Below the pieces are notes generated by a model. That model searched no databases and was not told where the DNA came from. It saw only the letters and a list, made by a program, of their open reading frames with translations. Position numbers and translations under genes: made by a program. A stretch of DNA of 64,000 bases from Burkholderia catarinensis (lineage in GTDB: Bacteria > Pseudomonadota > Gammaproteobacteria > Burkholderiales > Burkholderiaceae): assembly GCF_001883705.2 (NCBI RefSeq), contig NZ_MDEQ02000009.1:62001-126000 (forward strand). Reading direction: 5' to 3'. Shown piece by piece: positions 11,890 through 27,572 of this stretch (position 1 is its first letter; each line of letters begins with the position of its first letter).

Positions 11890-12567
11890 TCAATCATCGG
11901 TCGATGGATCCTTGCGGACCACCCGCAGCACGCTGTCGATCACGAACGTCTCCCAATGGCGCACGGCATCCGGCGCATTCAGTTCCTCCCCGAGGAACGC
12001 GGACAACGTATACAGGTTCGACGTATAAAAATACGCGGTCGAGATGATCAGCAGGAAAACGTCGCGCGCCCTCAGCCCCTTGCGAAACAGGCCTTGTTCG
12101 ACGCCGTTCTCGAGAATCTTCGCGATGATCTCTACCGCATGCGACGAATACTCGCCCCGGCGCTCGAGCTTGGACAAGTGCTTGCCCTTGTGCAGGTTCT
12201 CCGTGTTGAGCAGCGTGATGAAATCGGGATTGCGCCAATAATAGTCCAGCTTGAAGCGAATCACGGATTTGAGCGCTTCCACGGGGTTCGAAGCATCGGG
12301 CGCCATTTTGAGTTCCGCCTCGTCCATCCGTCGATAGATGCCTTCGAGCACCGCAACGAACAGCCCCTCCTTGCTCCCGTAGTAGTAGTAGATCATCCGG
12401 TCATAGGATTTCGCCAGCCTGGAAATCCTTTCCACGCTGCCGCCTTCGTAGCCGTAGCGCGCGAAGACCTTGGTCGCCGCGCGCAGGATCTTGTCACGGG
12501 TTTCCTGTGCCGCTGCCTCCCGGACACCGGTTCCGCGCACAGTCTTGCCTTTTGCTGCTTGAGCCAT
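11890..12567 (-). CDS. TetR family transcriptional regulator
   Basis: Regulator of 225 residues. The N-terminal helix-turn-helix runs ETRDKILRAATKVFARYGYE to YYYYGSKEGLFVAVLEG (about residues 20-75); the rest is an all-helical ligand-binding domain. ATG at 12567 follows AGGAACG; the ORF extends further upstream but without a ribosome binding site. It is the first gene before the molybdo-hydroxylase operon on the same strand and likely controls it in response to the substrate. A direct repeat CTACGGA (12664-12670 and 12673-12679) upstream of the gene is a possible operator, weakly supported. Confidence 0.88.
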   Translation of the reverse strand: MAQAAKGKTVRGTGVREAAAQETRDKILRAATKVFARYGYEGGSVERISRLAKSYDRMIYYYYGSKEGLFVAVLEGIYRRMDEAELKMAPDASNPVEALKSVIRFKLDYYWRNPDFITLLNTENLHKGKHLSKLERRGEYSSHAVEIIAKILENGVEQGLFRKGLRARDVFLLIISTAYFYTSNLYTLSAFLGEELNAPDAVRHWETFVIDSVLRVVRKDPSTDD

Positions 12568-12899
12568 ACCGTTCCTATGGCGGCCGACAACCTGGCCATG
12601 CCGCCTGAAAAAAACTCTCAATAGCGGGATTCCGTGTTTTTTGTACAGGGAACGCTACATGAACTACGGATTCTACGGAACTCTTGGCGTGTCCGCAACA
12701 TGACATAAATGTATCGTAAATTCAAAGAGTTATATTTGACTTCGACGGCCGGGTGGCCAGCATCGCGAGCGCACGTCCGACATCTTCACGTTTTTATTTT
12801 GAGAAAGTGCTGCTACCATTCGTTTGTGGAGTACTCACTACATGAAATGTCAATTTCAGGTTGGCAGAGGCCGATGCCCGGTAAGCAGGAGATAGACGC
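12568..12899. other. divergent intergenic region between tetR and GAF histidine kinase genes
   Basis: This 332-base stretch is clearly richer in A and T than its surroundings. It must hold the promoters of the TetR/hydroxylase operon and of the kinase gene. Visible are a direct repeat CTACGGA at 12664 and 12673, and CAGGAGATAG directly before the kinase start as ribosome binding site. A 64-codon open frame from 12709 lacks coding character and runs into the kinase start. No gene, hairpin terminator or IS end was recognised. Confidence 0.5.
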
Positions 12900-14344: not shown

Positions 14345-14363
14345 CTATACGAACGTATGCGGC
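14345..14363. promoter_or_regulatory. candidate response-regulator box 1 (ATAC-N4-GTAT)
   Basis: CTATACGAACGTATGCGGC contains the inverted repeat ATAC-GAAC-GTAT. The identical 19 bases recur at 27554, and the same palindrome with another spacer occurs at 24171. The site lies 227 bases before the BON-protein gene and 33 bases after the GAF kinase gene. The half-site-N4-half-site form resembles boxes bound by TodT/StyR regulators (ATAAAC-N4-GTTTAT), relatives of the regulator encoded at 23298. Function is inferred. Confidence 0.5.
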
Positions 14364-14589
14364 CATCTATCCTGACGGGTCGTGCAGCTAGCTACAGATG
14401 CTATGGATGCCGGTGACGCTGCGCCTTATTCTGGTTCCACCGGTACACGAATCGCATCGGCAACGACTCGGGCGGCAGGTGATCGAGTCGGCTTCGCGAT
14501 GTGGCAATGATGCGATTCGCGTGCGTCGCGACGATGCACACGACCGGAACATGCGTGCCATTCGATACCAGCAACCCAAGGAACCCATC

Positions 14590-14967
14590 ATGAAAATTCG
14601 ACAAGTCATCCTGAATGGCGGTCTGGCGGCCGTCCTGCTCGCTTGCCTGCAACTGCAGGCATTTGCCGACGAAAGTGCCAATGCGGCGGGCACGGATGCC
14701 GCGGTGACGTCCACCCAGACGAAGAAGGCCACGCGTGCGGCCAATCGCGCGTTCTCGCGGTCGATTCAGAAAACGCTGTCGCGAACGAAGGGGCTGCAAG
14801 GGCAAGCGATCACGGTTTTCGGCAATGCCGCGACCGGACAGGTGACGCTGGCCGGCCAGGTGCAAACTGAAGACGAAGACCATCTCGCGGTCGAGTCGGC
14901 CAGGAAGATCCACGGCGTCAAATCGGTGAAAAGCGAGCTGATGCTGCGTGAGAAAGGCGGAGCCTGA
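14590..14967 (+). CDS. exported BON-domain protein
   Basis: Periplasmic protein of 125 residues. A signal peptide (MKIRQVILNGG to LQLQAFA, cleavage about residue 23) precedes a linker rich in Thr and Ala and one BON domain (about residues 60-122): GLQGQAITVFGNAATGQVTL, GQVQTEDEDHLAVESARKI and VKSVKSELML. BON domains such as those of OsmY bind membrane phospholipid or stabilise the envelope under stress. ATG at 14590 has AAGGAA before it; the frame continues upstream without a ribosome binding site. One of the two identical palindromic boxes lies upstream, so it is a candidate output of the neighbouring two-component system. Confidence 0.82.
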   Translation: MKIRQVILNGGLAAVLLACLQLQAFADESANAAGTDAAVTSTQTKKATRAANRAFSRSIQKTLSRTKGLQGQAITVFGNAATGQVTLAGQVQTEDEDHLAVESARKIHGVKSVKSELMLREKGGA

Positions 14968-15059
14968 GCGAGGGCGCATCGCGGGGCCGAATGACGGGGT
15001 ATCGGTGATTCGTGCGTCCGCTTTCACATGATCGATCCGATTGATTGGGAGAAGAGGTG

Positions 15060-15500
15060 ATGGTGATGTTGCATGAAGCGGACATCGTGGCTCGCACGTT
15101 GATCAATGTCCTCGATCCTTCGCAAGAACAACGCAGCGTTTGCTTGCAGGCGCAGCGCACCCGATACAAGGCGCGACGCCTCGGGCTGCGCCAATGGGAT
15201 GAGGGCGATGCGCGTGCGCGGGCCGAACCGCCTTTCAGAATAGCCGTGATGGAACGCCTTTCGTTGTCCATGATCAGTGTTTCATGGAGCGACTCGTGTT
15301 CAGGGCGGTATGCCGAGCAAATCTGGTGCAGGAGCCGCGCGCGTGTCCCGTCGATATGTGTGCTGACGGGGCGTGCGATACAACGCGGTGATCCGGTGTT
15401 TCGTCCGCGAGCGAGCGATGTCTGTCTGCCCGCCAACCGGCAGCGGATGATTCTTGCCGCGACCGTTCAACCATGTATCGATGCGGCCGACGCGATTTAG
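15060..15500 (+). CDS. DUF3331 domain protein (first copy)
   Basis: Small protein of 146 residues of the Burkholderia-typical DUF3331 family; function unknown. Conserved features shared with the second copy at 27088 are the opening EADIVARTLINVLDPS, ISVSWSDSCSG, EQIW, then CVLTGRAIQRGDPVFRP and ILAATV at the end. Start 15060 is chosen because it aligns with the start of the second copy; ATG 15066 has better spacing to GAGAAGAGG and is equally possible. No signal peptide or membrane segment. It sits between the BON and universal stress protein genes in a region of stress and signalling genes. Confidence 0.75.
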   Translation: MVMLHEADIVARTLINVLDPSQEQRSVCLQAQRTRYKARRLGLRQWDEGDARARAEPPFRIAVMERLSLSMISVSWSDSCSGRYAEQIWCRSRARVPSICVLTGRAIQRGDPVFRPRASDVCLPANRQRMILAATVQPCIDAADAI

Positions 15501-15539
15501 ACCGGGCGAATCGCGGACGAACGCGATCGCGCGTCGTCC

Positions 15540-15557
15540 GCGCGCATCGATGCGCGC
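15540..15557. terminator. perfect 18-base palindrome between convergent genes
   Basis: GCGCGCATC is followed directly by GATGCGCGC in the 62-base gap between the convergent DUF3331 and universal stress protein genes. It could form a stem of nine pairs in either transcript and is placed like a bidirectional terminator. There is no T-run. Confidence 0.42.
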
Positions 15558-15562
15558 CGGCG

Positions 15563-16021
15563 CTAGGTCGACGGGACCGTGACGACGATAAGCGCCGCAC
15601 CATGAAGGCGCTCGGCCAGATCGAAGTGAACGGGGCGCTCGCGCCACCAGCGAGCGAACCCGGTGCGGGCACGATATCCGACGACGATCATGTCCGCGCA
15701 GGTTGTCGACGCATGCGCCGCGATAGCATCGGCCGCGCGTCCGAACCGGAGATGGCCGCATGCGGCGATGCCGTCGTCCGTCAGTTTGCCGACCGCCCGT
15801 TGAAGATCGCGATGGGCGAATTCTTCCAGACGCTGATGGCCGAGCTCGCTGAGCAGTCCGGCCGACTGTGCGTTGGCGGTTACGTTGTCGACAATGGCGA
15901 CGACGTCGACCGTGGCCGACAATGCGCGAGAAAGCGACGCACACCGCGCGAGTGCGGCGTTTGCTTCGTTGGTTCCGTCATAGACGAGCAACATTCTGGA
16001 CAGCGATGACATCTTCGGCAT
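15563..16021 (-). CDS. universal stress protein (UspA family)
   Basis: Cytoplasmic USP domain of 152 residues: the opening strand RMLLVYDGTNEANAAL, a middle helix region, and the closing ADMIVVGYRARTGFARWW with the strand ALIVVTVP. The typical G-2x-G-9x-G-S/T nucleotide loop is degenerate here, with a Trp-rich loop instead, so ATP binding is uncertain. The start is chosen at 16021; ATG at 16012 is also possible and neither has a strong ribosome binding site. It lies downstream of the ECF sigma gene on the same strand, 193 bases apart, and may depend on it. Confidence 0.78.
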   Translation of the reverse strand: MPKMSSLSRMLLVYDGTNEANAALARCASLSRALSATVDVVAIVDNVTANAQSAGLLSELGHQRLEEFAHRDLQRAVGKLTDDGIAACGHLRFGRAADAIAAHASTTCADMIVVGYRARTGFARWWRERPVHFDLAERLHGAALIVVTVPST

Positions 16022-16214
16022 TGGTTGCGGGAATAAAGTCGCCCGTGGCGGGCACCGGTGCAAGCGGTCGGCGTTCGGCCACGTGCGCAGAAGCGGGTGC
16101 GGCTGCTTTCACTGAACACGCGATGGCCATCATTTATTCCAGTGCGATCCCCCGCGCCGGCGATCGTGTCGCTGCCGGTTCGCCTCGGCAGACACGCGAC
16201 GTCGCGCGTCGATG

Positions 16215-16757
16215 TCAGGTCTGCGCGTCGATACAATGTCCCGTCTCCATTCGTGATTCGCCGGATCCGTCGAACACCATGCGAAGCGCTTTGCGCGCGC
16301 GGGATATCCGGCTCATGATGGTGCCGACCGGTATGTCGAGCGTATCGGCTGCTTGCCGATAGCTGAGCCCATCGACGCTGACGAGCAGCAATACGGTGCG
16401 CTGGGATTCCGGCAGCCGCTCGACGGCGTCGATGATTTGCCGGATGGCCAGCCCGGTTTCGGGCGTGGAGCGGGGATCGGAGACCGTTTCCAGCAATGCG
16501 TCGCTCAGTTCGAGCACGAGGCGGTTGCGATGATTGCGTTGCCGCAGTTCATTGAGCCATATCGACTGGATGATCGAGAACATCCAGCTCACCGGCGACG
16601 TATCGGAGCGCAACTGATGAGCCCGCTCGAGTGCGCGAATGCATGCACGCTGGACGAGCTCTTCGGCATCGTACCGGTTACCGGAAATGCGCATCGCGAA
16701 CGACCACAGGCGCGGCAGCATATCGGGCAGCATCGTTGAAAGTTCGGTTTGCTCCAT
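16215..16757 (-). CDS. ECF-type RNA polymerase sigma factor (first copy)
   Basis: Sigma factor of 180 residues with region 2 (MLPRLWSFAMRISG, YDAEELVQRACIRALERA, WMFSIIQSIWLNELR, about residues 12-75) and region 4 (LPESQRTVLLLVSVDGLSYRQAADTL, IPVGTIMSRISRARKALR, about 115-165). It is strikingly similar to the second sigma factor at 32933, for example in PVSWMFSIIQS against PLSWMFSIVQS. Unlike that copy, no anti-sigma gene follows: the next gene on this strand is the universal stress protein. Control of its activity is therefore not evident. Confidence 0.88.
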   Translation of the reverse strand: MEQTELSTMLPDMLPRLWSFAMRISGNRYDAEELVQRACIRALERAHQLRSDTSPVSWMFSIIQSIWLNELRQRNHRNRLVLELSDALLETVSDPRSTPETGLAIRQIIDAVERLPESQRTVLLLVSVDGLSYRQAADTLDIPVGTIMSRISRARKALRMVFDGSGESRMETGHCIDAQT

Positions 16758-17240
16758 GACGACTCAAGTCCGGCATGGGATCCCGGCTGCACGTCACGCG
16801 ACGCGTCGACAGCGAGTGCGGTCCGGAGGAATCCCTGGGGAAAGGAATGTCCAGATGCGGCGGTCGGGCAGAGGGTGGTGTGAGTGCATCGAGCTGGCCG
16901 TGCGACGTCTGTACCGACGTATTGGACCGCCGGGAGGTATCGGGCTTATTTCGTCGAACGGGGTTTATGCAATGCAATGTACCTGCGGCGCACTCGGATA
17001 CAGTGAGAGACAATCGAGCGCGCTGCGACGGTGGCCGCCGTAGTGCAACCGCATGGCAATTTCCGCAATCGACCGGCGCGACTGCGGGTCACTGGAATTC
17101 GCGCGGCAGGGCCGCTCGTCAACGGCAACGCATCTTCGTGGCTTCGCCCGGACGCGGATGGGCGGCCGGCCAATGAAGCACGTGCACGAGCCGGCCACTA
17201 TTGCGCCTGCCCGTGTCGGATCGCCGGAAACGACGGCGCT
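16758..17240. other. intergenic region upstream of ECF sigma gene
   Basis: In these 483 bases I find no open frame with convincing coding character. It must contain the promoter of the sigma gene reading leftward. At about 16911-16924 the sequence TGTACCGACGTAT resembles the ATAC-N4-GTAT palindromes found elsewhere in the region with one mismatch per site; this could be a degenerate regulator box 155 bases before the sigma start, but the match is weak. Nothing else was recognised. Confidence 0.4.
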
Positions 17241-17477
17241 TCAATGGCCGGAATAGAGTTTCCTGAGCGCGTCGAGCTCGCCGCTCTGGCGCGCGTGCGC
17301 GAGCTCCTGGCGCACTTCGATACGTGTCTTTCCCATCGGCATCGCCGCGGCCGGTGCCCATTGGGTCGTGGCCGCGGCATCTTGATTCCCTGTCATCGAA
17401 TCGACGGGGGCCGCTGCATGGGCGCAGGCTGCGGTAGCAAACGCGACGAGCGCGAAGGTGATCCTTGATGTCTTCAT
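17241..17477 (-). CDS. small exported DUF4148 protein (first copy)
   Basis: Secreted protein of 78 residues: a signal peptide (MKTSRITFALVAFATAACAHA) followed by a short polar region and the DUF4148 signature MGKTRIEVRQELAHARQSGE, ending DALRKLYSGH. The family is typical of Burkholderiaceae, usually present in many copies, with unknown function and probable periplasmic location. A second copy lies at 31093. ATG at 17477 is chosen because it opens the signal peptide. No strong ribosome binding site precedes it. Confidence 0.8.
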   Translation of the reverse strand: MKTSRITFALVAFATAACAHAAAPVDSMTGNQDAAATTQWAPAAAMPMGKTRIEVRQELAHARQSGELDALRKLYSGH

Positions 17478-18139
17478 GTCGGAATCCGGAAGGTGGGTCG
17501 ATCGAACGGTACGCACGGTATCTGGCGAAGGCGGGAGCCGGATGCGCCGGCCGCGTTGCGCTGGTCGTCAGAATCCGTCGCGTGGGTATTGAGCGCCGCA
17601 AAGGTATCCCGCATGTGTCCGGGGCGTGGCATTTTGCAATGTCATGTATCCATCCGGAGACCAGGTACATCCGGATACGAAAGCGCCGGTCATGACGGGG
17701 CGCGAGTCCGCTTGGGCAGCTCGCATGCGTTGGCCGGCGCACATCGTCGCAAGCGCGTGGAGAGCGTATCGCGCTGTCGAACCGGCTCGATTCGAACCGC
17801 GGACAATCGATCGTCGGGAGCGGCGCGCGATCTGCGTGATGCGGGGCGTGCCGATTCCGGCGCGCGTTGTTGCATTGACGATATCGTGCTGGAATAATCT
17901 GCGGGTTCGCGTGTTATCACGGGTACCTGGAAGAAAGGCGCGGCGGCCGGTGAGGTGCGACACCGCACGAGCGAAATCGCGGGAGCCCCGCGGCCCGCGT
18001 CGCGACCGCGGGTTCGAACGAACGGATACAACCCGGCATCCCGCTCCGGCACGTTGCACGGGTGCCGCATGCCGTGCTCCACGCCGCCGTGCCAGCGGCG
18101 TTCGAGTTGATGACGCCACCGTTTCCTTACTGCATTCGC
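17478..18139. other. long intergenic region before the giant kinase gene
   Basis: These 662 bases separate the DUF4148 gene (leftward) from the giant protein gene (rightward). Open frames are present on both strands but are rich in Arg, Ser and Pro without recognisable domains, and I regard them as non-coding. An inverted repeat GTATCC (17646-17651) and GGATAC (17673-17678), 27 bases apart, is a possible regulatory site. Promoters for both flanking genes must lie here, but none can be named with confidence. Confidence 0.4.
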
Positions 18140-21100
18140 ATGATCGAACTTTCGACACGCCGCTTTATCGAATTGAGCCCCGGCCCGCCACGGCTGCACC
18201 GTGCGATCGACGACCATGCGCCGTCCGTGCTGGTCGCCGGGCGCGGCGTCGCGGCACCGTCCGCGGTCGCCGCGCTGCAACGCGAATATGGGTTGCGCTC
18301 GGCACTGCACGAACGCTGGTCCGCTGTTCCACAAGCCATCGTGTCGCACGGTGGCGGCGCCGTGCTCGTCCTTGCCGATCCGGGCGGGATGCCGCTCTCC
18401 GTTGGCGGTGTACCGCAGCAGCGTTTGCCGGCGTTTCTGCGGCGCGCGATTTCGCTCGCGACAGCGCTGGGCGAGATGCATGCGGCCGGTATCGTGCATC
18501 GCGCGCTTGCGCCGCATCGCTTCCTCGTCGATGACGATGATCGTGCGTTTCTGACGGGCTTCGGCTACGCCATCGGCCCCGGCGCGACCGACCCGTTGCG
18601 CGACGCCGATCTCGATCGGGACGACACGGATTTCGTCTATACGGCGCCCGAACTCGGCACGCGCATGAACCTGCGTGTCGACGCGCGGGCCGATCTTTAT
18701 TCGCTCGGATGCATTCTCTATGAGCAGTTGACCGGTGTGCCGCCGTTCGATGCGACCGATGCCGCCGGACTCGTGCACGCACACGCCACGCATTCGGCGC
18801 GCCCCCCTCACGACCTCGTTCCGCACGTACCGGAGCAGATTTCGCGGATCGTCGTGAAGCTGCTCGAAAAGGCGCCGGAGCAGCGGTACGGCACGGCTGC
18901 GGGGCTCGTCGCCGACCTGCAGCGATGCGAGCAGTGCCTTCGCCGTGACGGTCGCATTCCGATGTTCGCGCTCGATGTCCATGCGGCGCTGCAGCGTCTG
19001 CAGCAAGCCGATCACGTGGTGGGCCGCGAACAGGAGATCGACGCGTTGCGCGCGCAGTACCGTGCCGTCGCCACCGTTGGAGAGGCGCGCGTCGCATGGG
19101 TTTCCGGCCACTCGGGCATGGGCAAGTCGACGCTGCTTCTGGAGGCCGTCGCGCGAATCAGGCACGACGGGGCGCTGCTCGTGGCCACCAGCAAGGGCGA
19201 GGAAGGGCGCCGCGGCACGCCGTATGCGATGCTTGCCCAGGCGCTGGAGCCGCTGCTGCAGTTCGTGCTGGGTTGCGCGGACGACGAATTCGACAGGTGG
19301 CGCGCGCGAATCGGAACGGCAGTGGCGCCTGTCGGACGCACGCTCGCGAGATTCCTGCCGGCGCTCTCGGCGGTGCTTGGCCCGCAAGCGGGCACGCCGG
19401 AGCAATCCGAACTGGCGCCAGGGCTGGAGCGAGAGCGCGTGCTGCAAGCGATCGCCCGGCTGATCGCGTGTTTCGCGGCACCGGAGCGCCCGCTCGCGCT
19501 GCTGCTCGACGATCTGCAATGGGCCGATGCGGGCACGATACAGGTGCTGGAGCGCCTGGCGCAGCAACACCGCGACACGGCGTTGCTGCTCGTTGGTGCA
19601 TATCGCGGGAACGAGATCGATGCGGGTCACCCGTTGCGGGCCGGCCCGCTGGCCGACATTCCCGATGCATTGACGGTGGAACTCGGGCCGCTGAACGAGC
19701 GGGCGACGACCGAGCTGATCGCCCACGCGCTGCATCAGGATACCGATGCGCTTCGCCCGTTGTCCGACCTGATCGGACGGAGAACCGGCCGCAATCCGTT
19801 CTTCGTGCATCACCTGCTGCGCCTGCTAGCCGATGAAGGCATGCTCGATTACGACGCGGGCGCCGGCCTGTGGCGCTGGAACATGGTGCACATTGCCGCG
19901 CATCGCGGCGGCGATGACGTCGCGATGATGCTGGCGCGGCAGTTCGAGCTGCTGCCGGACGCCGCACGATTCATGTTGCGCTTGCTGGCCTGCATCGGCC
20001 AGCGTGCGTCGACGCGCCTGCTGGCCACGGCCGCTGGCCTGACCGAGCCCGATGCGATCGAGGGGCTGCAGGCGGCGCTCGATGCCGGCAGTCTCCAGCG
20101 CGACGGCGACGACTGGACGTTCTGGCACGATCGCATTCGCGAGGCGGCGTATGCGTCGATCCCGGAGGGCGAACGGGCGGCGCTGCATCATGCAATCGCC
20201 TGCCGCTTGCTGGCGGCGGGCGATGCCTGCGCCGACGCCTTCGTGCTGGCCGCGCAGGCGAACCTCGCCAGCACGGTTGTCGAGGCGCGCGCGCAGCGCT
20301 GCGCGTTCGCGCGCGTGAATCTGGAGGCCGGGCGGCAAGCCAGGGCGGCAACCGCGCATCATTCCGCACTCGGCTTTTTTCGCGCCGCCGTCGATTTCCT
20401 CGGCGAACGGGACACCAGCGACGACGGGCTCGAGGCGCGCATGCTGTGCGGCGAGGCCGAGTTCATGACCGGTGCGCTCGAAGCCGCCGAAGCGCGCCTG
20501 GCCGAGCTGGAGCGGGTGGCCGGCGACGGCACTTTCGGCGCGGATCTCACGCGCCTGCGCGCGGCGTTGTACACGGCGCTGGGCCGCTTCGACCTGGCTC
20601 TCGGTGTCGGCCTTGCGTTCCTGAAGCGGTCCGGCATCGATATCCCGCCTCATCCGGACAGCGCGGACGTGCATCGCGAATACCTTCGCCTGCGCGGCTG
20701 GCTGGACCGCAACGGGATCGACGCGCTGCGTGACCTGCCGATCATCGGCGATCCGCTGCAGCGCGCGATTGTCGACATCTTTGCCGACCTGATCCCGCCG
20801 GCACTCTATTCCGACCAGGATCTGGTCGACATGATTCTGCTGCGCGCGGTGAATCTGGCGATCGAGCACGGCCATTCCGATGCGTCGGCCGACGTCTACG
20901 TCTGCATGAACCAGATCTTCGGCGCACGTTACGGCGATTACGCCGCGTCGCTGGCATTTGGCGAGCTCGCGCTGCATCTGGTCGACGAGCGCGGACTCGA
21001 TCGGTATCGCGGCCGCGTGTACATGGCGCACGGCACGATCGTGGTGCCGTGGGTGTTGCCGGCGCGCTCGGCCCGTGGGTATATCTCGCGGGCATTCGAG

Positions 21101-23197
21101 ATCACGGTCGAGTGCTGCGATCATACTTTTGCGCTCTATTGCAAGCGCAACGAGGCCACCGGCATGCTGTTCGCCGGCGAATTTCTCGGCGACGTACGCG
21201 ACACGGTGGCGCACGGGCTTGTGATCGCGCGCGATGCGAATTTCCAGCTCGTGATCGATGCACTGCTTGCGCAGCAGATGCTGCTGAGGCGGTTACAGGA
21301 AGGCGAGACCGACGATCGCGACGTGTTGCCGCCGCCGGAGGGCAGGCCGGCGACCCTGGTCGATCTCGCCTACTGGGTCTACAGGCTGCAGGCGGCACTG
21401 TTGTTCGGCGATCTGCCGGACGCGCTTGACGCGCGCCGGCGCGCCGAAGCTTGCGAGCATGCGGCTCGTTCGTTTGCCGAGCGGGCCGATTTGCCGTTCT
21501 ACGGCGCGCTCGCATTGCTTGCGCTGCCCTGCCGCGATGCGTCCCAGGAAGCTGCGCTGCAGCGCCATGTCGAGCAACTCGACGTCTGGGCGCGGGCCTG
21601 CCCGGCGAACTTCGTCGCGCGACGCGAGCTGGTGCGCGCGGAGCACGCGCGCGTGAATGGCCAGCCGCTGGACGCGGCGGAAGCTTATGCGCGCGCCGTG
21701 GCGCACGCGGGCAAGCATGGCTTCACGCAGGTCGAGGCGCTGGCAGCCGAGTGCGCGGCGCGATTCCATGCGGGCCGCGACGATATCGCTGCGCACGCTT
21801 ATTTGCGCCATGCGCAGAGCGCATGGCAGCGTTGGGGGGCGCTGGCGAAGGTGCGCCAGTTGCAGGCCGCGCATCCCGATGTATTCGATGCCGGAGCGGG
21901 CAACCCTGTCGGGAGTCGGATGCACGCACTGGACGTCAACGCGGTGCTGCGCGTGTCGAACGCGCTGGCGAGCGACATCGTGCCGGCGCGTCTCGTGGAA
22001 ACGCTGTTGCGCACGACACTCGAAAGCGCCGGGGCGGAGCATGGCGCGCTCGCGGTGCTGCGCGAGGGCGTCTGGCATGTACCGGCGCGCGCGGACGTGA
22101 TCGACGGTACGATCGTCGTGACGCAAGAGGCCGTGTCGTTGACGGCGAGCGTGCTTCCTGTCTCGGTCGTGCAGGCGGTCGCCCGGACGCAGGAAGGGGT
22201 GGTGATCGACGATGCGTCGGAGTCGCCGGTTCATGGTCAGGATGCTTATGTTCGCCGCCGGCGCCCCCGTTCGGTGATGTGCGTACCGCTGATGCGTTAT
22301 GCGACGCTCGTCGGCGTGCTGTATATGGAAAACAATCTGGCGGCGCGGATGTTTACCGCGGCCAAGGCGGCGCTGGTGGAGGTGATCGCCTCGCAGGCCG
22401 CGTTCGCGCTCGAGAATGCGCGGCTCTATGAGGAGCTGGTCGAGCAGAACCGTCAGCGCGCGCATGCCGAGGAACAGTTGCGTGCCGCACTTGCCGGCCT
22501 CGAGCGCGCCAGCCGCCTGACAGCGATGGGGGAGCTCGTCGCATCCATCGTCCATGAGATCGGACAGCCGATTGCCGCCGTGGACACGTCGGCGAGCGCC
22601 GCGTTGCGTTGGCTGAACCGGGAACCGCCGGACGTCGGCGAAGCGCGGGCGATGCTCGCACACATCAATCGGAGCGCGGCGCGGGCCAAGAGCATCATCC
22701 AGGCGCTGCGCGCGAAGGCACGCAAGGCCGCGCCGCAGTTTGCGACGGTTGACCTCGCCGAGGCCGTGCGCGAGGCCGCGGCGCTCGTCGCGCGGCAGCT
22801 CGACACGCTGGACGTGGTGCTGGAGCTGCGCAGTCACGATGGCCCCGTCTACGTATACGGCGACCGGATCCAGCTCCAGCAGGTCGTGATCAACCTGCTG
22901 ACGAACGGCGCCGAATCGATGGCCGAGCTCGAGACGGCGCGTTGTCTTTCGCTTGCCTGCGCAGCGCACGGCGTTGACAGCGTACGCGTGACCGTGGAGG
23001 ATTCGGGCAGCGGCATTGCACCCGACGTCGCGGACCGGCTGCTCGAACCGCTTTTCACGACCAAGGAGAACGGGATGGGCATGGGCCTCGCCATCTCGCA
23101 TTCGATTGTCGACGCTCACGGCGGAACGTTGACGCTGTCGCCGCGCGAGGGTGCCGGTACGCGAGCAACCGTCATGCTGCCGCGCGTCGATCCATGA
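18140..23197 (+). CDS. giant kinase-like / AAA ATPase / GAF / histidine kinase signalling protein
   Basis: Cytoplasmic protein of 1685 residues. Residues 1-270 follow a Ser/Thr kinase fold (catalytic-loop region at 119-130, APE at 169-171, DLYSLG at 185-190), but the catalytic Asp of HRD is Ala (HRALAPHRF) and DFG reads TGF, so it looks like a pseudokinase. An ATPase domain follows with Walker A GHSGMGKST (323-331) and Walker B LALLLDDLQWAD (about 452). A long helical repeat region leads to a GAF domain (about 1267-1430) and a histidine kinase with SIVHEIGQPIAAVDTSA (His about 1471), LTNGAESM, EDSGSGIAP and GMGMGLAIS. Start at 18140 is by family alignment; GTG 18062 and ATG 18110 are alternatives. 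A FixJ/TodT-like regulator follows 100 bases later and is its likely partner. Confidence 0.88.
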   Translation: MIELSTRRFIELSPGPPRLHRAIDDHAPSVLVAGRGVAAPSAVAALQREYGLRSALHERWSAVPQAIVSHGGGAVLVLADPGGMPLSVGGVPQQRLPAFLRRAISLATALGEMHAAGIVHRALAPHRFLVDDDDRAFLTGFGYAIGPGATDPLRDADLDRDDTDFVYTAPELGTRMNLRVDARADLYSLGCILYEQLTGVPPFDATDAAGLVHAHATHSARPPHDLVPHVPEQISRIVVKLLEKAPEQRYGTAAGLVADLQRCEQCLRRDGRIPMFALDVHAALQRLQQADHVVGREQEIDALRAQYRAVATVGEARVAWVSGHSGMGKSTLLLEAVARIRHDGALLVATSKGEEGRRGTPYAMLAQALEPLLQFVLGCADDEFDRWRARIGTAVAPVGRTLARFLPALSAVLGPQAGTPEQSELAPGLERERVLQAIARLIACFAAPERPLALLLDDLQWADAGTIQVLERLAQQHRDTALLLVGAYRGNEIDAGHPLRAGPLADIPDALTVELGPLNERATTELIAHALHQDTDALRPLSDLIGRRTGRNPFFVHHLLRLLADEGMLDYDAGAGLWRWNMVHIAAHRGGDDVAMMLARQFELLPDAARFMLRLLACIGQRASTRLLATAAGLTEPDAIEGLQAALDAGSLQRDGDDWTFWHDRIREAAYASIPEGERAALHHAIACRLLAAGDACADAFVLAAQANLASTVVEARAQRCAFARVNLEAGRQARAATAHHSALGFFRAAVDFLGERDTSDDGLEARMLCGEAEFMTGALEAAEARLAELERVAGDGTFGADLTRLRAALYTALGRFDLALGVGLAFLKRSGIDIPPHPDSADVHREYLRLRGWLDRNGIDALRDLPIIGDPLQRAIVDIFADLIPPALYSDQDLVDMILLRAVNLAIEHGHSDASADVYVCMNQIFGARYGDYAASLAFGELALHLVDERGLDRYRGRVYMAHGTIVVPWVLPARSARGYISRAFEITVECCDHTFALYCKRNEATGMLFAGEFLGDVRDTVAHGLVIARDANFQLVIDALLAQQMLLRRLQEGETDDRDVLPPPEGRPATLVDLAYWVYRLQAALLFGDLPDALDARRRAEACEHAARSFAERADLPFYGALALLALPCRDASQEAALQRHVEQLDVWARACPANFVARRELVRAEHARVNGQPLDAAEAYARAVAHAGKHGFTQVEALAAECAARFHAGRDDIAAHAYLRHAQSAWQRWGALAKVRQLQAAHPDVFDAGAGNPVGSRMHALDVNAVLRVSNALASDIVPARLVETLLRTTLESAGAEHGALAVLREGVWHVPARADVIDGTIVVTQEAVSLTASVLPVSVVQAVARTQEGVVIDDASESPVHGQDAYVRRRRPRSVMCVPLMRYATLVGVLYMENNLAARMFTAAKAALVEVIASQAAFALENARLYEELVEQNRQRAHAEEQLRAALAGLERASRLTAMGELVASIVHEIGQPIAAVDTSASAALRWLNREPPDVGEARAMLAHINRSAARAKSIIQALRAKARKAAPQFATVDLAEAVREAAALVARQLDTLDVVLELRSHDGPVYVYGDRIQLQQVVINLLTNGAESMAELETARCLSLACAAHGVDSVRVTVEDSGSGIAPDVADRLLEPLFTTKENGMGMGLAISHSIVDAHGGTLTLSPREGAGTRATVMLPRVDP

Positions 23198-23297
23198 TGC
23201 GTCGTCCGTCGGCGCGACGCGCGGCGGGCGGACAGGTTCTTCGAGTTGTGTTTGAGCCGCTCCGCGACCACTCCTGAAAATTCATCAGCGAATATCG

Positions 23298-23966
23298 ATG
23301 CCGGAAACCAGAATGCCCCACGCGACACCTGCATCCGCGGATCGGAGCGGCCGAGTCGTCTACGTCGTCGATGACGACGAGTTCGTTCGTGCCGCGCTGA
23401 TCAGCCTGCTGCGATCGATCGACCTGGACGTTCGTGCCTTTGCGTCGACGGACGAGTTTCTCGCGGCAACGAAGGGCGCAGGACCGTCGTGCCTCGTCCT
23501 GGACGTCAGGCTGCGCGGGCAGAGCGGAATCGCGTTTCAGACGTCGCTGGCAGAGAGCGGCGGCCCGCAGATGCCGATCATCTTCATCACGGCGCACGGC
23601 GATATTGCGATGACGGTGAAGGCGATGAAAGCCGGCGCGATGGATTTCCTGACGAAACCGTTCCGCGACCAGGACATGATCGATGCGGTGATTGCGGCGC
23701 TTGACCGCGATGCGAAACGGCTGCAGGACGATCGCTCGCTGCTCGATCTGCGCGCGTGTTGGGAATCGCTGACGCCGCGTGAACGCGAGGTGCTGCAACA
23801 CGTCGCGACGGGCCTGATGAACAAGCAAGTCGCGGGCAACATGGGAATCGCGGAGATCACGGCCAAGATTCATCGCAGCCAGGCGATGCGAAAAATGCAG
23901 TGCCGCTCGGTCGCTGAACTGGTGCGCAAGATGACTGCGCTCGGCATCGACGTACCGTCGCGCTAG
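23298..23966 (+). CDS. FixJ/TodT-like response regulator (receiver + LuxR-type HTH)
   Basis: DNA-binding regulator of 222 residues. The receiver domain (about 19-140) has the acidic pair VDDDE, the phosphoacceptor Asp 69 in LVLDVRLRG, the conserved ITAHGD and KPF. The C-terminal LuxR/NarL helix-turn-helix (about 152-212) reads LTPREREVLQHVATGLMNKQ to SVAELVRK, as in FixJ, StyR and TodT. It directly follows the giant FixL/TodS-like kinase and is probably phosphorylated by it, and perhaps by the related kinase at 12900. The ATAC-N4-GTAT palindromes at 14345, 24171 and 27554 are candidate binding sites. An in-frame ATG five codons later is an alternative start. Confidence 0.9.
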   Translation: MPETRMPHATPASADRSGRVVYVVDDDEFVRAALISLLRSIDLDVRAFASTDEFLAATKGAGPSCLVLDVRLRGQSGIAFQTSLAESGGPQMPIIFITAHGDIAMTVKAMKAGAMDFLTKPFRDQDMIDAVIAALDRDAKRLQDDRSLLDLRACWESLTPREREVLQHVATGLMNKQVAGNMGIAEITAKIHRSQAMRKMQCRSVAELVRKMTALGIDVPSR

Positions 23967-24273
23967 CGGCGGCCCGGGCGCGGAAAACCATCGGCGCTGG
24001 CGCATCGCGCGCCGAGCCGGATAACCTGCATCCATGCGGCGTGCGGCATCCCGATCTCCGGCGTGGCGCGCCCGGGGCACAGGCCGCCGCGCCCGCTGCG
24101 GAAAAAGCGAGCGCCATTCGTTTACCCGGATCTTTCATCAACCGGTCCATGCACCGACGCCGGCCCTACCCATACGTAGGTATGATGACGGTGCCGCGGC
24201 GTGACGGTATGCTGGCAACTTGGGTTAACAGTGCTCGGGACGGGCCGGTCCGTCCCCCTCGTCATAAGCAGGG
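23967..24273. other. intergenic region between response regulator and receiver-only gene
   Basis: The 307 bases contain one clear element, the palindrome CATAC-GTAG-GTATG at 24171-24184, annotated separately. The rest is GC-rich without a coding frame or terminator that I can recognise. Confidence 0.5.
24171..24184. promoter_or_regulatory. candidate response-regulator box 2 (CATAC-GTAG-GTATG)
   Basis: Perfect inverted repeat CATAC and GTATG separated by four bases, sharing ATAC-N4-GTAT with the sites at 14345 and 27554 but with a different spacer, which points to conserved half-sites rather than a copied block. It lies 90 bases before the start of the receiver-only protein, a position suited to promoter activation. 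The regulator encoded just upstream at 23298 is the obvious candidate to bind it. Confidence 0.5.
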
Positions 24274-24657
24274 ATGCCTTTTTCACTCTCAACCTCCGAT
24301 CTCGTATCCATTGTCGACGACGATCCCTTCGTACGCGCCGCCGCGGGAAGTTTCGTGCGTTCGTTGGGCGGGGAGGCGCGCGAATTCGCGTCGGGGCCGG
24401 CATTCCTGGCGTCGGACGTGGCGTCGCGAACGGGTTGCCTGATCTGCGACATCCAGATGCCCGAGATGGATGGCATCGAAGTCCTGGCCCGGATGGAAGC
24501 ACGCGGCCTGCGCATTCCTACCGTGTTGGTCACGGCGTTCGTCACCGCCCGCACGTCCGAGCGAGCGCGGGCCAGCACCGCGCTTTGTCTCCTCGAGAAG
24601 CCGATCGACGCACAGGAGCTCGAAGGCTGGCTTGCCCGTGCGCTCGGATACGGCTGA
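24274..24657 (+). CDS. single-domain response regulator (receiver only)
   Basis: Stand-alone receiver of 127 residues with no output domain. It opens SDLVSIVDDDPFVRAA (acidic pair), has the phosphoacceptor Asp 59 in CLICDIQMPEMDG, the conserved Thr in LVTAF and the Lys in LEKP, so it should be phosphorylatable. Such proteins act as phosphate shuttles, sinks or competitors for a kinase. It lies between the FixJ-like regulator and a membrane histidine kinase. AGCAGGG precedes the ATG at short spacing. Confidence 0.86.
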   Translation: MPFSLSTSDLVSIVDDDPFVRAAAGSFVRSLGGEAREFASGPAFLASDVASRTGCLICDIQMPEMDGIEVLARMEARGLRIPTVLVTAFVTARTSERARASTALCLLEKPIDAQELEGWLARALGYG

Positions 24658-24792
24658 TCGCCGGTCTGCGCCGCAACGGCAACCTAAACCTTCGTAGGGG
24701 GTGGATGGCCGCTCGTTTGATGGTGCGAACCCCCTCACGCATGTTTTCATCTTCCCTGTACCGTCCGCCGCGACGGCGACAGGAGAACGAAG

Positions 24793-25863
24793 ATGGCCAA
24801 CATTCCTACCTTATCGTCCGGAGCCTGGTTTGAGGCTCGGCTCACGCGCTGTATCCGCAACCTCAGCCGCGCATGCCGTGGGCATGCGCGCGAACTCGTC
24901 GCGTGTCCGGCCCGGCTGTTCGTCGTGGCTGGCGTGCTGTTCGTCGCGGCGGCCCTGTACGACGCTCGCGACCTGCTGGCGAATGAATTGCTTCCCGCCG
25001 TCGGCGGCGATTTCCTGATTGCAAGCGTGGCGGCCGCGGTGCTTGCGCTGTTGGTGGTGGTGCTGTGGCTGCGTGCGCTGCGACTGGACGCGACCATCCG
25101 GCAACTCGCCGCGGCAGTCGAGAACCATGGGCTGGAAGAGTTGCCCCGGTCACTGGTCGAGCGCGGCACGCCGTCGATCGCGAGACTGGCAGTCGCGATC
25201 AACGACGCGCATCACCAGCACGGGGAACGCTTGACGGAATTGCTGCAGGTGCTCGCGGCCTATGCGCATGATCTGCGTACGCCGCTGACGCGCGTGATGC
25301 TGCGTAGCGGAATGCTGGAAGATCGCACGTTGCGCGATGCGATGGAGCGCGACCTTGCCGAGATGGGAGAACTGATCAACGCGAGCCTTGCCTGCGCGCG
25401 GCTTCAATGCAGCGTGGCGGAGCCGCCGCGCCGCGTCGACGTGGACGAGTTGCTCGGCTCGCTGGTCGACAACTATCGTGACGCGGGTCTTGCCGTCGCC
25501 CTGGACGGGCGGGTGGACTGTCCGCTCGTGACATTCCCGCATGCACTGCGGCGCGTGCTCGTCAACCTGATCGACAATGCACTGCGTTACGGGCGCGATG
25601 TCCGCCTGTGCGTTCGCGTCGATGCCAGACTCGTGATGCTTGCCGTGGTGGATTCAGGGCCGGGCATCGTGCCGGCGGAGATGGAAGCGGTATTCACGCC
25701 GTGGTATCGGGCGCCGCAGACATCGGCGCGCGCGCCGGGATCCGGATTGGGGCTCGCGATCGCACGGCGGCTGACGCAAGCGATGCAGGGGGAACTGCAA
25801 CTGAACAATCGCAGCACCGGAGGCCTCGAAGCGCGCGTGACATTGCCGCTCGCCGTCGCGTGA
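24793..25863 (+). CDS. membrane sensor histidine kinase (EnvZ-like core)
   Basis: Inner-membrane kinase of 356 residues. Two membrane helices (about 40-60 and 76-97) enclose only a short periplasmic loop, so it probably senses the membrane or a cytoplasmic state rather than a large external ligand. A HAMP-like linker follows, then the H box AAYAHDLRTPLTRV (His about 158), N box VNLIDNALRYG, G1 box DSGPGIVP and G2 box GSGLGLAIARRLTQA. No DNA-binding OmpR-type regulator adjoins it; only the receiver-only protein lies upstream. The H box differs in type from those of the two GAF kinases in the region. Confidence 0.88.
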   Translation: MANIPTLSSGAWFEARLTRCIRNLSRACRGHARELVACPARLFVVAGVLFVAAALYDARDLLANELLPAVGGDFLIASVAAAVLALLVVVLWLRALRLDATIRQLAAAVENHGLEELPRSLVERGTPSIARLAVAINDAHHQHGERLTELLQVLAAYAHDLRTPLTRVMLRSGMLEDRTLRDAMERDLAEMGELINASLACARLQCSVAEPPRRVDVDELLGSLVDNYRDAGLAVALDGRVDCPLVTFPHALRRVLVNLIDNALRYGRDVRLCVRVDARLVMLAVVDSGPGIVPAEMEAVFTPWYRAPQTSARAPGSGLGLAIARRLTQAMQGELQLNNRSTGGLEARVTLPLAVA

Positions 25864-26215
25864 GGGCATGGAGGCGATGTCGGCGGCGGCCGTTGTTCTG
25901 TTGCCGTCCGCTTTCATACAGCCTTTCAAAAACTCGCACGCAATCATGTAGGTGTCCAGATGATTGATTCATTTGTGAATGTCGTTCATGAACCGCGGAA
26001 AGTGCTTCGGGATGAGTGCGCGATCGCCGCTTCGTACAGAGGTTCGCCGGATACATTCCGATACGCCAGGGACATACGCGAGATACATGGCGGGCTCCCA
26101 ATGATGCATGACGTCGAGTTCGGCGAGTCCGCGATCCCGCGGACGCACGGCGAACACCCGTTTTCACGCCGTGTGCGGGACGGGACGTCGATCGCAAATG
26201 ACCGGGAGTGCGACA
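25864..26215. other. intergenic region between histidine kinase and SDR genes
   Basis: In these 352 bases an open frame of 87 codons starts at 25960 and runs into the SDR gene, but it has no ribosome binding site, poor codon bias at its start and no similarity that I recognise. GGGAG before the SDR start is its ribosome binding site. No palindrome of the ATAC-N4-GTAT type was seen here. Confidence 0.4.
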
Positions 26216-27064
26216 ATGAATGACAGCAAAGTTTGGTTCATCACGGGCTGCTCCGGCGGCTTGGGTCTTCAGCTTGCCGAGGCGGTGCTTTCCGCCGGCC
26301 ACAAACTGGCGGCAACGGCGAGGGACGTGACGCGTCTGGCCAGCCTGGCGGACGCATATGGCGATCGGATTCAAGCGATCCCGCTGAACGTCACCGACCC
26401 GGGCGCGGCGCGCGGCGCCGTCAGCCTGGCGGTGGAGCAATTCGGTCGACTCGACGTGCTGGTGAACAACGCGGGCTACGCCGATCTGGCGTCGATCGAA
26501 GACATCACCGACAAGGCGCTGCACGAGCAGATGGAGGTCAACTTCTTCGGCGTGTGCAATGTCACTCGTGCGGCACTGCCGTTCATGCGTCGGCAACGGG
26601 CCGGCCACATCATTCAGATCTCGTCGGTGGGCGGAAGAGTCGGCGGCCCCGGGCTCGCCGCCTATCAGGCAGCCAAATGGGCGGTGGGCGGTTTCTCCGA
26701 AGTGCTGGCGAAGGAGGTCCGTGATTTCGGCATCCAGGTAACGATCGTCGAGCCGGGATCGATGCGGACCCGTTGGGCCGGTTCGTCGATGACCATTCCG
26801 CCGATCAGCGACGCGTACAAGCCGATCATCGAACCGGTCGCGGCACGGTTGCGCAGCATCGACGGCATGCAACCCGGCGATCCCGCGCGGATTGCCCGGG
26901 CGCTGCTCGGCATTGCCGGATCGCCGACAGCGCCTTTGCGATTGCTGATGGGCAGCGACGCGGTCGCGGTAGCCGGCGCGGCGGCAAGGTTCCGTGCGGA
27001 AGAGGACGCACAATGGCGCGAATTGAGCGAATCCGTTTCGTTTCCGCCGGCGCAGCCCGAATGA
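26216..27064 (+). CDS. short-chain dehydrogenase/reductase
   Basis: Classical SDR oxidoreductase of 282 residues. The NAD(P) motif is WFITGCSGGLGLQLAE (TGxxxGxG type), followed by the NNAG motif LVNNAGYAD, the active-site Ser in IQISSVGGRVG and Tyr-x-x-x-Lys in YQAAKWAVGG. ATG at 26216 has GGGAG before it. Its stop overlaps an in-frame ATG of the DUF3331 gene, so the two are probably co-transcribed. The substrate is unknown. Another SDR of the same type lies at 37548. Confidence 0.88.
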   Translation: MNDSKVWFITGCSGGLGLQLAEAVLSAGHKLAATARDVTRLASLADAYGDRIQAIPLNVTDPGAARGAVSLAVEQFGRLDVLVNNAGYADLASIEDITDKALHEQMEVNFFGVCNVTRAALPFMRRQRAGHIIQISSVGGRVGGPGLAAYQAAKWAVGGFSEVLAKEVRDFGIQVTIVEPGSMRTRWAGSSMTIPPISDAYKPIIEPVAARLRSIDGMQPGDPARIARALLGIAGSPTAPLRLLMGSDAVAVAGAAARFRAEEDAQWRELSESVSFPPAQPE

Positions 27065-27087
27065 AGTCGGCTGCCGGAGACCGACCG

Positions 27088-27510
27088 ATGACCGCGCTAT
27101 CGGAGGGCGATATCGTGGTACGGGTGCTGCTGAACGTTCTCGATCCGTCCGCCGAGCAGCGCCAGGCGTGCACGAAGAAGTGGTCCATCGGGTACCGGCC
27201 GCGCCGTGCAAGCGCGGGTTCGCGCACGGCGAGGCGACCAGTCAACGTCGTGATCGTGAGGCGGATTTCGGTAAGCGCGATCAGCGTCTCGTGGAGCGAC
27301 GCGTGTCTGGGCAAGTCTACCGAGCAGATCTGGAGCAGAGGTTTTGCCGACGGCGCGGCTGTCTGTGCACTGACCGGGCGTTGCATCGACCGCGGCGACC
27401 CGGTGTTTCGCCCTCACGCCGGCGACGCGCGCGTTCCGGCGAGCCGGGCACTCACGATCCTGGCCGCAACCGTCGGGCAGCATCCCGATCCGCTGCTCGC
27501 CGATACCTGA
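27088..27510 (+). CDS. DUF3331 domain protein (second copy)
   Basis: Paralogue of the protein at 15060, 140 residues, function unknown. Matching stretches are SEGDIVVRVLLNVLDPSAEQ, ISVSWSDACLG, EQIW, CALTGRCIDRGDPVFRP and ILAATV. Start 27088 is preceded by GGAGA at good spacing and aligns with the first copy; ATG 27061 overlaps the SDR stop and is an alternative. Two copies within 12 kb, each near a copy of the same regulator box, suggest a role in the local response. Confidence 0.75.
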   Translation: MTALSEGDIVVRVLLNVLDPSAEQRQACTKKWSIGYRPRRASAGSRTARRPVNVVIVRRISVSAISVSWSDACLGKSTEQIWSRGFADGAAVCALTGRCIDRGDPVFRPHAGDARVPASRALTILAATVGQHPDPLLADT

Positions 27511-27553
27511 GCGCGTCGCGCGCGCGTGCAGGACCGTGGGCTGTCGTCTGCGT

Positions 27554-27572
27554 CTATACGAACGTATGCGGC
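27554..27572. promoter_or_regulatory. candidate response-regulator box 3, identical to box 1
   Basis: CTATACGAACGTATGCGGC is identical over 19 bases to the site at 14345 and contains ATAC-GAAC-GTAT. It lies 44 bases after the second DUF3331 gene and about 120 bases before the MFS gene start, where it could act as an activator site for the MFS gene. The surrounding sequences of the two sites do not match, so this is not merely part of a duplicated gene. Confidence 0.52.

Follow-up and report, generated by a model that had tools for sequence, protein, structure and literature searches.

Three copies of the palindrome ATAC-N4-GTAT (ATACNNNNGTAT) stand within a 64,000-nucleotide (nt) stretch of the Burkholderia catarinensis genome (contig NZ_MDEQ02000009.1, positions 62,001 to 126,000; hereafter the window), in the same region as the gene for a FixJ/TodT/StyR-like response regulator at 23298-23966, which raises the question of what protein these palindromes serve and what genes they control. 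Our analysis indicates that they are very probably operators of this regulator, within the scheme of activation and feedback proposed below, because relatives of the regulator in other bacteria are accompanied by the same palindrome, in DNA outside genes, more than by any other palindrome tested. Compared across genomes, the regulator clade co-occurs with ATAC-N4-RTAT in gene-free DNA, mostly before a gene for a single-domain receiver protein (receiver-only gene) and, for a subset of the palindromes, before a gene for a BON-domain protein; by the same comparison, the palindrome keeps a constant spacing to a -10-like hexamer.

The palindromes in the window, the host genome and orthologous loci

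The strict pattern matches exactly three times in the window (Table 1), against a mean expectation of 0.07, and none of 100 dinucleotide shuffles reached three or more matches. All three palindromes were placed outside called genes by an independent gene caller, with 237, 177 and 133 nt between the palindrome centre and the start of the next called gene, which correspond to the BON, the receiver-only and the MFS gene, respectively; for the receiver-only gene, where the caller picked a later start, the distance shrinks to 96 nt if counted to the start at 24274. The window scan and the gene calls confirm the original prediction of three intergenic palindromes, each before a gene, as well as its reading of an identical copy at 14345 and 27554 and a differing third, the 19-mer CTATACGAACGTATGCGGC being common to the first two and lacking in the other. 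Their rarity also stood, although the earlier figure of 0.2 chance matches per 64 kb was slightly generous in comparison with the shuffled mean. When up to one mismatch was allowed, the window held 6 matches, the three strict ones included, versus 3.7 expected. On this count, and for want of conservation in the 5 orthologous loci aligned with the window, a fourth site considered before the ECF sigma factor gene (GTACCGACGTAT, 16911; one mismatch) was dropped.

Across the 8.2-Mb host genome, 17 strict matches were found versus 4 for the reversed control pattern. The longer form YATAC-N4-RTATR occurs at 5 places, of which 3 are the window palindromes; a fourth is without a clear gene, and the fifth is within an open reading frame, presumably for a MurJ-like membrane protein, to judge from the resemblance of its opening letters. 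In the genome scan proposed earlier as a check, the palindrome is not frequent without relation to these genes of the window. Seven of the 17 strict matches carry ATACGTCAGTAT or its reverse. In the five such places with fetched context (L001-L003, L121 and L126), all of them outside called genes, this sequence forms part of the dyad TTGCGAATACGTCAGTATTCGC; the place read in detail (L001) is a long hairpin repeat, an element unrelated to the window palindromes. The other 7 matches beyond the window include 3 inside called genes and 4 intergenic ones with no clear gene link. One strict host match (L122) has the form ATACTCCTGTAT or its reverse, which also occurs once each in four congeneric genomes (G036, G061, G005 and G027) among the matches listed.

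Orthologues of the regulator, 83-95% identical, occur in further Burkholderia genomes, with Burkholderia anthina chromosome 3 and B. latens as named records of close orthologues, and 8 orthologous loci from 7 genomes were compared. Upstream of the BON gene, 7 of the 8 loci carry a strict palindrome, the eighth having no BON match, and a ninth locus (G077) also displays a strict palindrome upstream of a BON gene. Before the receiver-only gene the palindrome was found in all 8 loci, in 3 as the strict form and in 5 as ATACGTAGATAT. The spacer of the BON palindrome varies among orthologues (GAAC, CAAC, AAAT, AAAC), whereas the half-sites are constant, in agreement with the earlier view that half-sites, rather than a copied block, are conserved, and that conservation should be seen upstream of orthologous genes. 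No recurring strict or one-mismatch match was found upstream of the USP and ECF sigma factor genes in the loci scanned, and direct control of these genes is not supported. Of the link to envelope and stress genes that had been suggested, the part concerning the BON gene is well supported; the MFS link is weaker.

Recurrence of the palindrome beside relatives of the regulator

An unbiased dyad test was carried out with 256 four-base half-sites and spacers of 0-12, that is, 3,328 dyads. The discovery set comprised up to 19 kb around regulators 58-73% identical to that of the window, in 39 genomes, of which 38 belong to other genera within the family; these loci are the top of the relatives list, and 22 of the 39 include short loci previously inspected for sites. 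A held-out set, constituting the clean test, consisted of the 22 loci that remained from 79 after 39 were removed for overlap with earlier loci and 18 as redundant, and 20 loci with different FixJ-family regulators (35-45% identical) served as controls. ATAC-N4-GTAT ranked first among all dyads in the discovery set (47 sites versus 2.0 expected, with 28 spacers, in 21 loci) and again in the held-out set (39 versus 1.31, 27 spacers, 17 loci), while 3 sites versus 1.16 expected were counted in the control loci. The strict palindrome is present in 21/39 discovery loci versus 2/20 controls (Fisher p 0.0015), and the relaxed palindrome in 29/39 versus 3/20 (Fisher p 1.9e-5). None of the 47 discovery sites lies inside a called gene, with 83% of the DNA coding, and the same is true of all but 2 of the 39 held-out sites, with 80% coding. 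The Poisson p-values (8e-47 for the discovery and 5e-43 for the held-out set) overstate the significance, because of the relatedness among loci; better arguments come from the variety of spacers and from the held-out set. Together with the conservation in orthologous loci, this first rank in both sets lends strong comparative support to the proposal that the regulator at 23298 binds the sites.

Further, twelve plasmid loci, hand-picked from 60 of 178 records, contained 11 sites versus 0.45 expected, in 7 of the loci. At E up to 1e-45, 124 of the 299 genomes sampled from the family contained members of the regulator group. Strict sites per congeneric genome averaged 12.1 with the clade (n=29) versus 9.1 without it (n=36; one-sided p 0.008; hairpin repeats counted), a count that separates both kinds of genome modestly.

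The genes downstream were surveyed for 76 strict sites, with the orthologous and control loci included; 75 of these sites fall outside called genes, and a total of 83 genes begin reading outward from them. When clustered by sequence, these are most often receiver-domain genes (30, comprising 22 short ones and 8 for full-length regulators), with BON genes (15) next, followed by clusters named after their scanned member, namely LysR (5), alpha/beta hydrolase (3), AraC (3) and outer-membrane efflux (2), ten proteins having been scanned in all; MFS orthologues account for 4, and single genes include those for catalase, chemoreceptor and cytochrome P460. Single-domain receiver genes are the most frequent target, which suggests feedback.

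Promoter geometry and the identity of the binder

The offset of TANNNT past the palindrome was analysed in 86 loci, with non-redundancy computed within each target group. At receiver-only sites, TANNNT lies 25 nt past the palindrome in 26/50 non-redundant sites and 24 nt past it in 7/50, giving 33/50 from 33 of 41 loci, with at most 2 for any other offset; several of the sites that deviate are second, more distant palindromes. The held-out loci alone display this spacing in 10/18 receiver-only sites. Of the 7 non-redundant BON sites, 6 are followed by TATNCT at an offset of 67-69 nt, and this hexamer was favoured over an initial reading of TATGGA, 43 nt downstream, as the -10 element. When the earlier set was pooled regardless of target, 25 nt was found in 18/121 sites versus 1.05 per other offset, and 67, 68 and 69 nt in 10, 5 and 5; in the pooled held-out sites these three offsets were found 4, 5 and 3 times. 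No TANNNT stands at either of the two usual spacings in the sequence examined at the MFS palindrome. In three loci (L139, L162 and L096), receiver-gene promoters carry two palindromes 38-40 bp apart; the inner palindrome of L139 and that of L162 show the degenerate half-site ATAT towards the promoter.

If the -10-like hexamer is taken to span -12 to -7, with start sites deduced in this way rather than mapped, the receiver-only palindrome would be centred near -43 (-43.5 or -42.5), and that of the window near -42.5 with TATGCT as its -10 element. The BON palindrome of the window would be centred near -86 with TATTCT as -10, roughly four helical turns further upstream than at receiver-only promoters. 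A scheme that fits these positions can be proposed, in which a histidine kinase of the locus would phosphorylate the regulator, and the phosphorylated dimer would bind the palindrome, each ATAC half-site receiving one recognition helix. The bound regulator would then activate sigma-70 transcription, standing beside RNA polymerase in the case of receiver-only promoters and some four helical turns upstream of that position in the case of BON promoters, and the receiver-only protein, itself under control of the regulator, would compete for phosphoryl groups and thus limit the response.

Several observations weigh against assigning the sites and this scheme to the regulator. The strict palindrome is missing from 18/39 discovery loci and from 5/12 plasmid loci, and 10/39 discovery loci lack even the relaxed palindrome (8 of the 18 have the relaxed form, 6 of these as ATATGTACGTAT or its reverse). 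One of these plasmid loci, from Variovorax paradoxus (L158, 71% GC), has no ATAC-N4-RTAT within 18.6 kb despite a 76% identical regulator, and in the six alphaproteobacterial loci of the plasmid set, with 4 sites versus 0.18 expected, the dyad ranks second; the control loci, for their part, are partly near-copies of one another. The pooled held-out sites show the 25-nt offset weakly (4/71 versus 0.61 per other offset), and the 6 BON sites with the 67-69-nt spacing come from two genera only, 3 from Burkholderia and 3 from one other genus. The MFS palindrome is not broadly conserved, being kept in 3 of the 7 orthologous loci with an MFS match by tblastn. Moreover, activation rather than repression is read from position only. 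Finally, since the regulator, the receiver gene and the site travel together, sequence by itself leaves a small chance that the binder is a different protein of this module. As to the Variovorax loci themselves, L158 has genes for a large AAA-family ATPase, the regulator, a receiver and a kinase in a row, and another locus (L186) has the relaxed palindrome.

The regulator might bind the palindromes as repressor or autoregulatory elements instead of activator sites, which we consider unlikely. Some loci have two palindromes 38-97 bp apart, the nine non-redundant palindromes before full-length regulator genes display the 24/25-nt spacing in no case (0/9), and StyR bound at a second, upstream site takes part in repression (PMC2442086); however, at receiver-only promoters the palindrome stands just upstream of the would-be -35 element, with a constant spacing to the -10-like hexamer, as expected for an activator, and the high-affinity StyR site at about -40 activates (PMC2442086).

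It is quite improbable that the palindromes are instead operators of another neighbouring transcription factor, for example that encoded by the TetR-type gene at 11890-12621 (named from its sequence). A TetR-type homologue does stand upstream of the 470-aa kinase gene in 7/8 orthologous loci, and the local sequence by itself cannot name the binder. Conversely, a short response-regulator gene is near the regulator in 12/12 plasmid loci and a TetR-type gene in 1/12, among the genes listed; the strict palindrome occurs in 7/12 of these loci, and the one with the TetR-type gene (L169) has none. The AC-N4-GT core is, furthermore, that of the TodT/StyR operator (PMC5874301), and the control FixJ-family loci show little enrichment. 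That the three matches are chance occurrences or copies of a dispersed repeat is scarcely credible, for although two of them share 19 bases and a hairpin repeat with ATACGTCAGTAT exists elsewhere in the genome, the shuffles and the variety of spacers in both sets of other genomes speak against it, the window palindromes lack the longer dyad of that repeat, and conservation before orthologous genes with diverged flanks refutes it.

The locus and its relation to known regulators

The regulator that we regard as the probable binder is encoded in a locus with the gene order GAF histidine kinase, BON, DUF3331, USP and ECF-type sigma factor (both on the opposite strand), 1711-aa kinase, regulator, receiver-only, histidine kinase, SDR, a second DUF3331, and MFS (Table 1). 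Its domains (Response_reg at 21-131, GerE at 156-211) correspond to the FixJ/NarL-type architecture, and in the receiver-only protein no Pfam family besides Response_reg was found at E 0.001. The 1711-aa kinase displays the Pfam domains Pkinase, AAA_16, GAF, HisKA and HATPase_c, and the 470-aa kinase is 46-47% identical to its C-terminal part. In three orthologous loci (G020, G021 and G028) the 1711-aa kinase query has no match beside the regulator and matches at the 470-aa kinase alone; these loci keep the regulator, the receiver-only gene and the palindromes. The two DUF3331 paralogues (15045-15500 and 27088-27510), about 50% identical over the aligned part, flank the segment between the other features: the first follows the BON gene and the second precedes the MFS palindrome. 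Upstream of the kinase-regulator genes, a block at 17607-17678 (TTTTGCAATGTCATGTATC ... ACATNCGGATAC) is conserved in the G015, G011, G021, G020 and G028 loci and contains the half-sites GTATC and GATAC in both everted and direct arrangement; it is perhaps a promoter or autoregulatory element of the regulator's own gene.

Table 1. Palindromes, genes and putative promoter elements, numbered from the first letter of the window
Feature	Position	Strand	Basis or role
Palindrome ATACGAACGTAT	14347..14358	.	Predicted operator upstream of BON gene
Palindrome ATACGTAGGTAT	24172..24183	.	Predicted operator upstream of receiver-only gene
Palindrome ATACGAACGTAT	27556..27567	.	Upstream of MFS gene
FixJ/TodT/StyR-like response regulator, 222 aa	23298..23966	+	Pfam Response_reg 2.3e-26, GerE 9.2e-19; predicted DNA-binding protein
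Single-domain receiver protein, 127 aa	24274..24657	+	Pfam Response_reg 3e-19; predicted core target
BON-domain protein, 125 aa	14590..14967	+	Pfam BON 9.8e-08 (scanned one codon longer) and gene call; predicted target
MFS-type transporter, 397 aa	27695..28888	+	Gene call, MFS label from the original prediction; weaker predicted target
Protein kinase/AAA ATPase/GAF/histidine kinase, 1711 aa	18062..23197	+	Just upstream of regulator; candidate partner
GAF histidine kinase, 470 aa	12900..14312	+	Second candidate partner
Histidine kinase, 356 aa	24793..25863	+	Adjoins receiver-only gene
Putative -10-like TATTCT of BON gene	14427..14432	+	Offset 68 and orthologue alignment
Putative -10-like TATGCT of receiver-only gene	24208..24213	+	Offset 24 and orthologue alignment

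The best PDB sequence match of the regulator is 1yio (E 1e-49), which we take to be StyR of Pseudomonas fluorescens ST, involved in styrene catabolism; the kinase architecture, gene setting and targets of StyR are, however, unlike those described here. FixJ is similar in combining a receiver with GerE (PDB 5xso, E 6.5e-35), but the regulator scores 177.7 bits against a cut-off of 255 for the NCBIfam FixJ model NF006900, and no nitrogen-fixation genes were found among the local genes scanned. TodS is a PAS-based sensor kinase, whereas the large kinase beside the regulator of the window, a candidate partner, is a protein kinase/AAA/GAF/histidine kinase and not of this PAS-based type.

In their receiver and helix-turn-helix, and in the use of a dyad with a 4-nt gap, the hydrocarbon catabolism regulators TodT, TutB and TmoT resemble the regulator studied here (PMC5874301). 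TodT/StyR regulators are reported to recognise ATAAACN4GTTTAT, with K175, V176 and H179 (StyR numbering) as putative contacts (PMC5874301). The AC-N4-GT core and the 4-nt gap are common to both operators, as had been anticipated for the gap, while the half-site differs, being ATAC here and ATAAAC in StyR; the predicted operator position near -43, counted from starts deduced from the -10-like hexamers, resembles the StyR site at about -40 (PMC2442086). Among the contacts, K175 is kept as K190 and V176 is replaced by I191, whereas H179 corresponds to S194 in the window regulator and to G in most relatives. The TodT/StyR operator core TAAAC-N4-GTTTA was found in none of the 39 discovery and none of the 22 held-out loci, and AAAC-N4-GTTT occurs there at chance level (3 versus 2.88 and 2 versus 2.06, respectively). 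Since the TodT/StyR operator is absent and H179 is replaced, the regulator is placed in a variant clade and not as a standard TodT/StyR member: judged by comparison, it works in a TodT/StyR-like manner, yet is non-standard in operator and contact residue. No description of an ATAC-N4-GTAT operator was found in searches of an open-access library.

On balance, we lean towards regarding these regulators as a large, undescribed TodT/StyR-like clade of Burkholderiaceae, Pseudomonas and alphaproteobacterial plasmids, with its own operator ATAC-N4-RTAT and a self-limiting receiver output controlled from near -43, plus, in a subset, a BON gene whose operator would lie about four helical turns further upstream. 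The replacement of H179 of StyR by S or G would offer a suggested sequence basis for the change of half-site from ATAAAC to ATAC. A concrete operator and promoter geometry for this regulator group would make its regulon readable from sequence in many genomes, and predicts a feedback wired in through a single-domain receiver.

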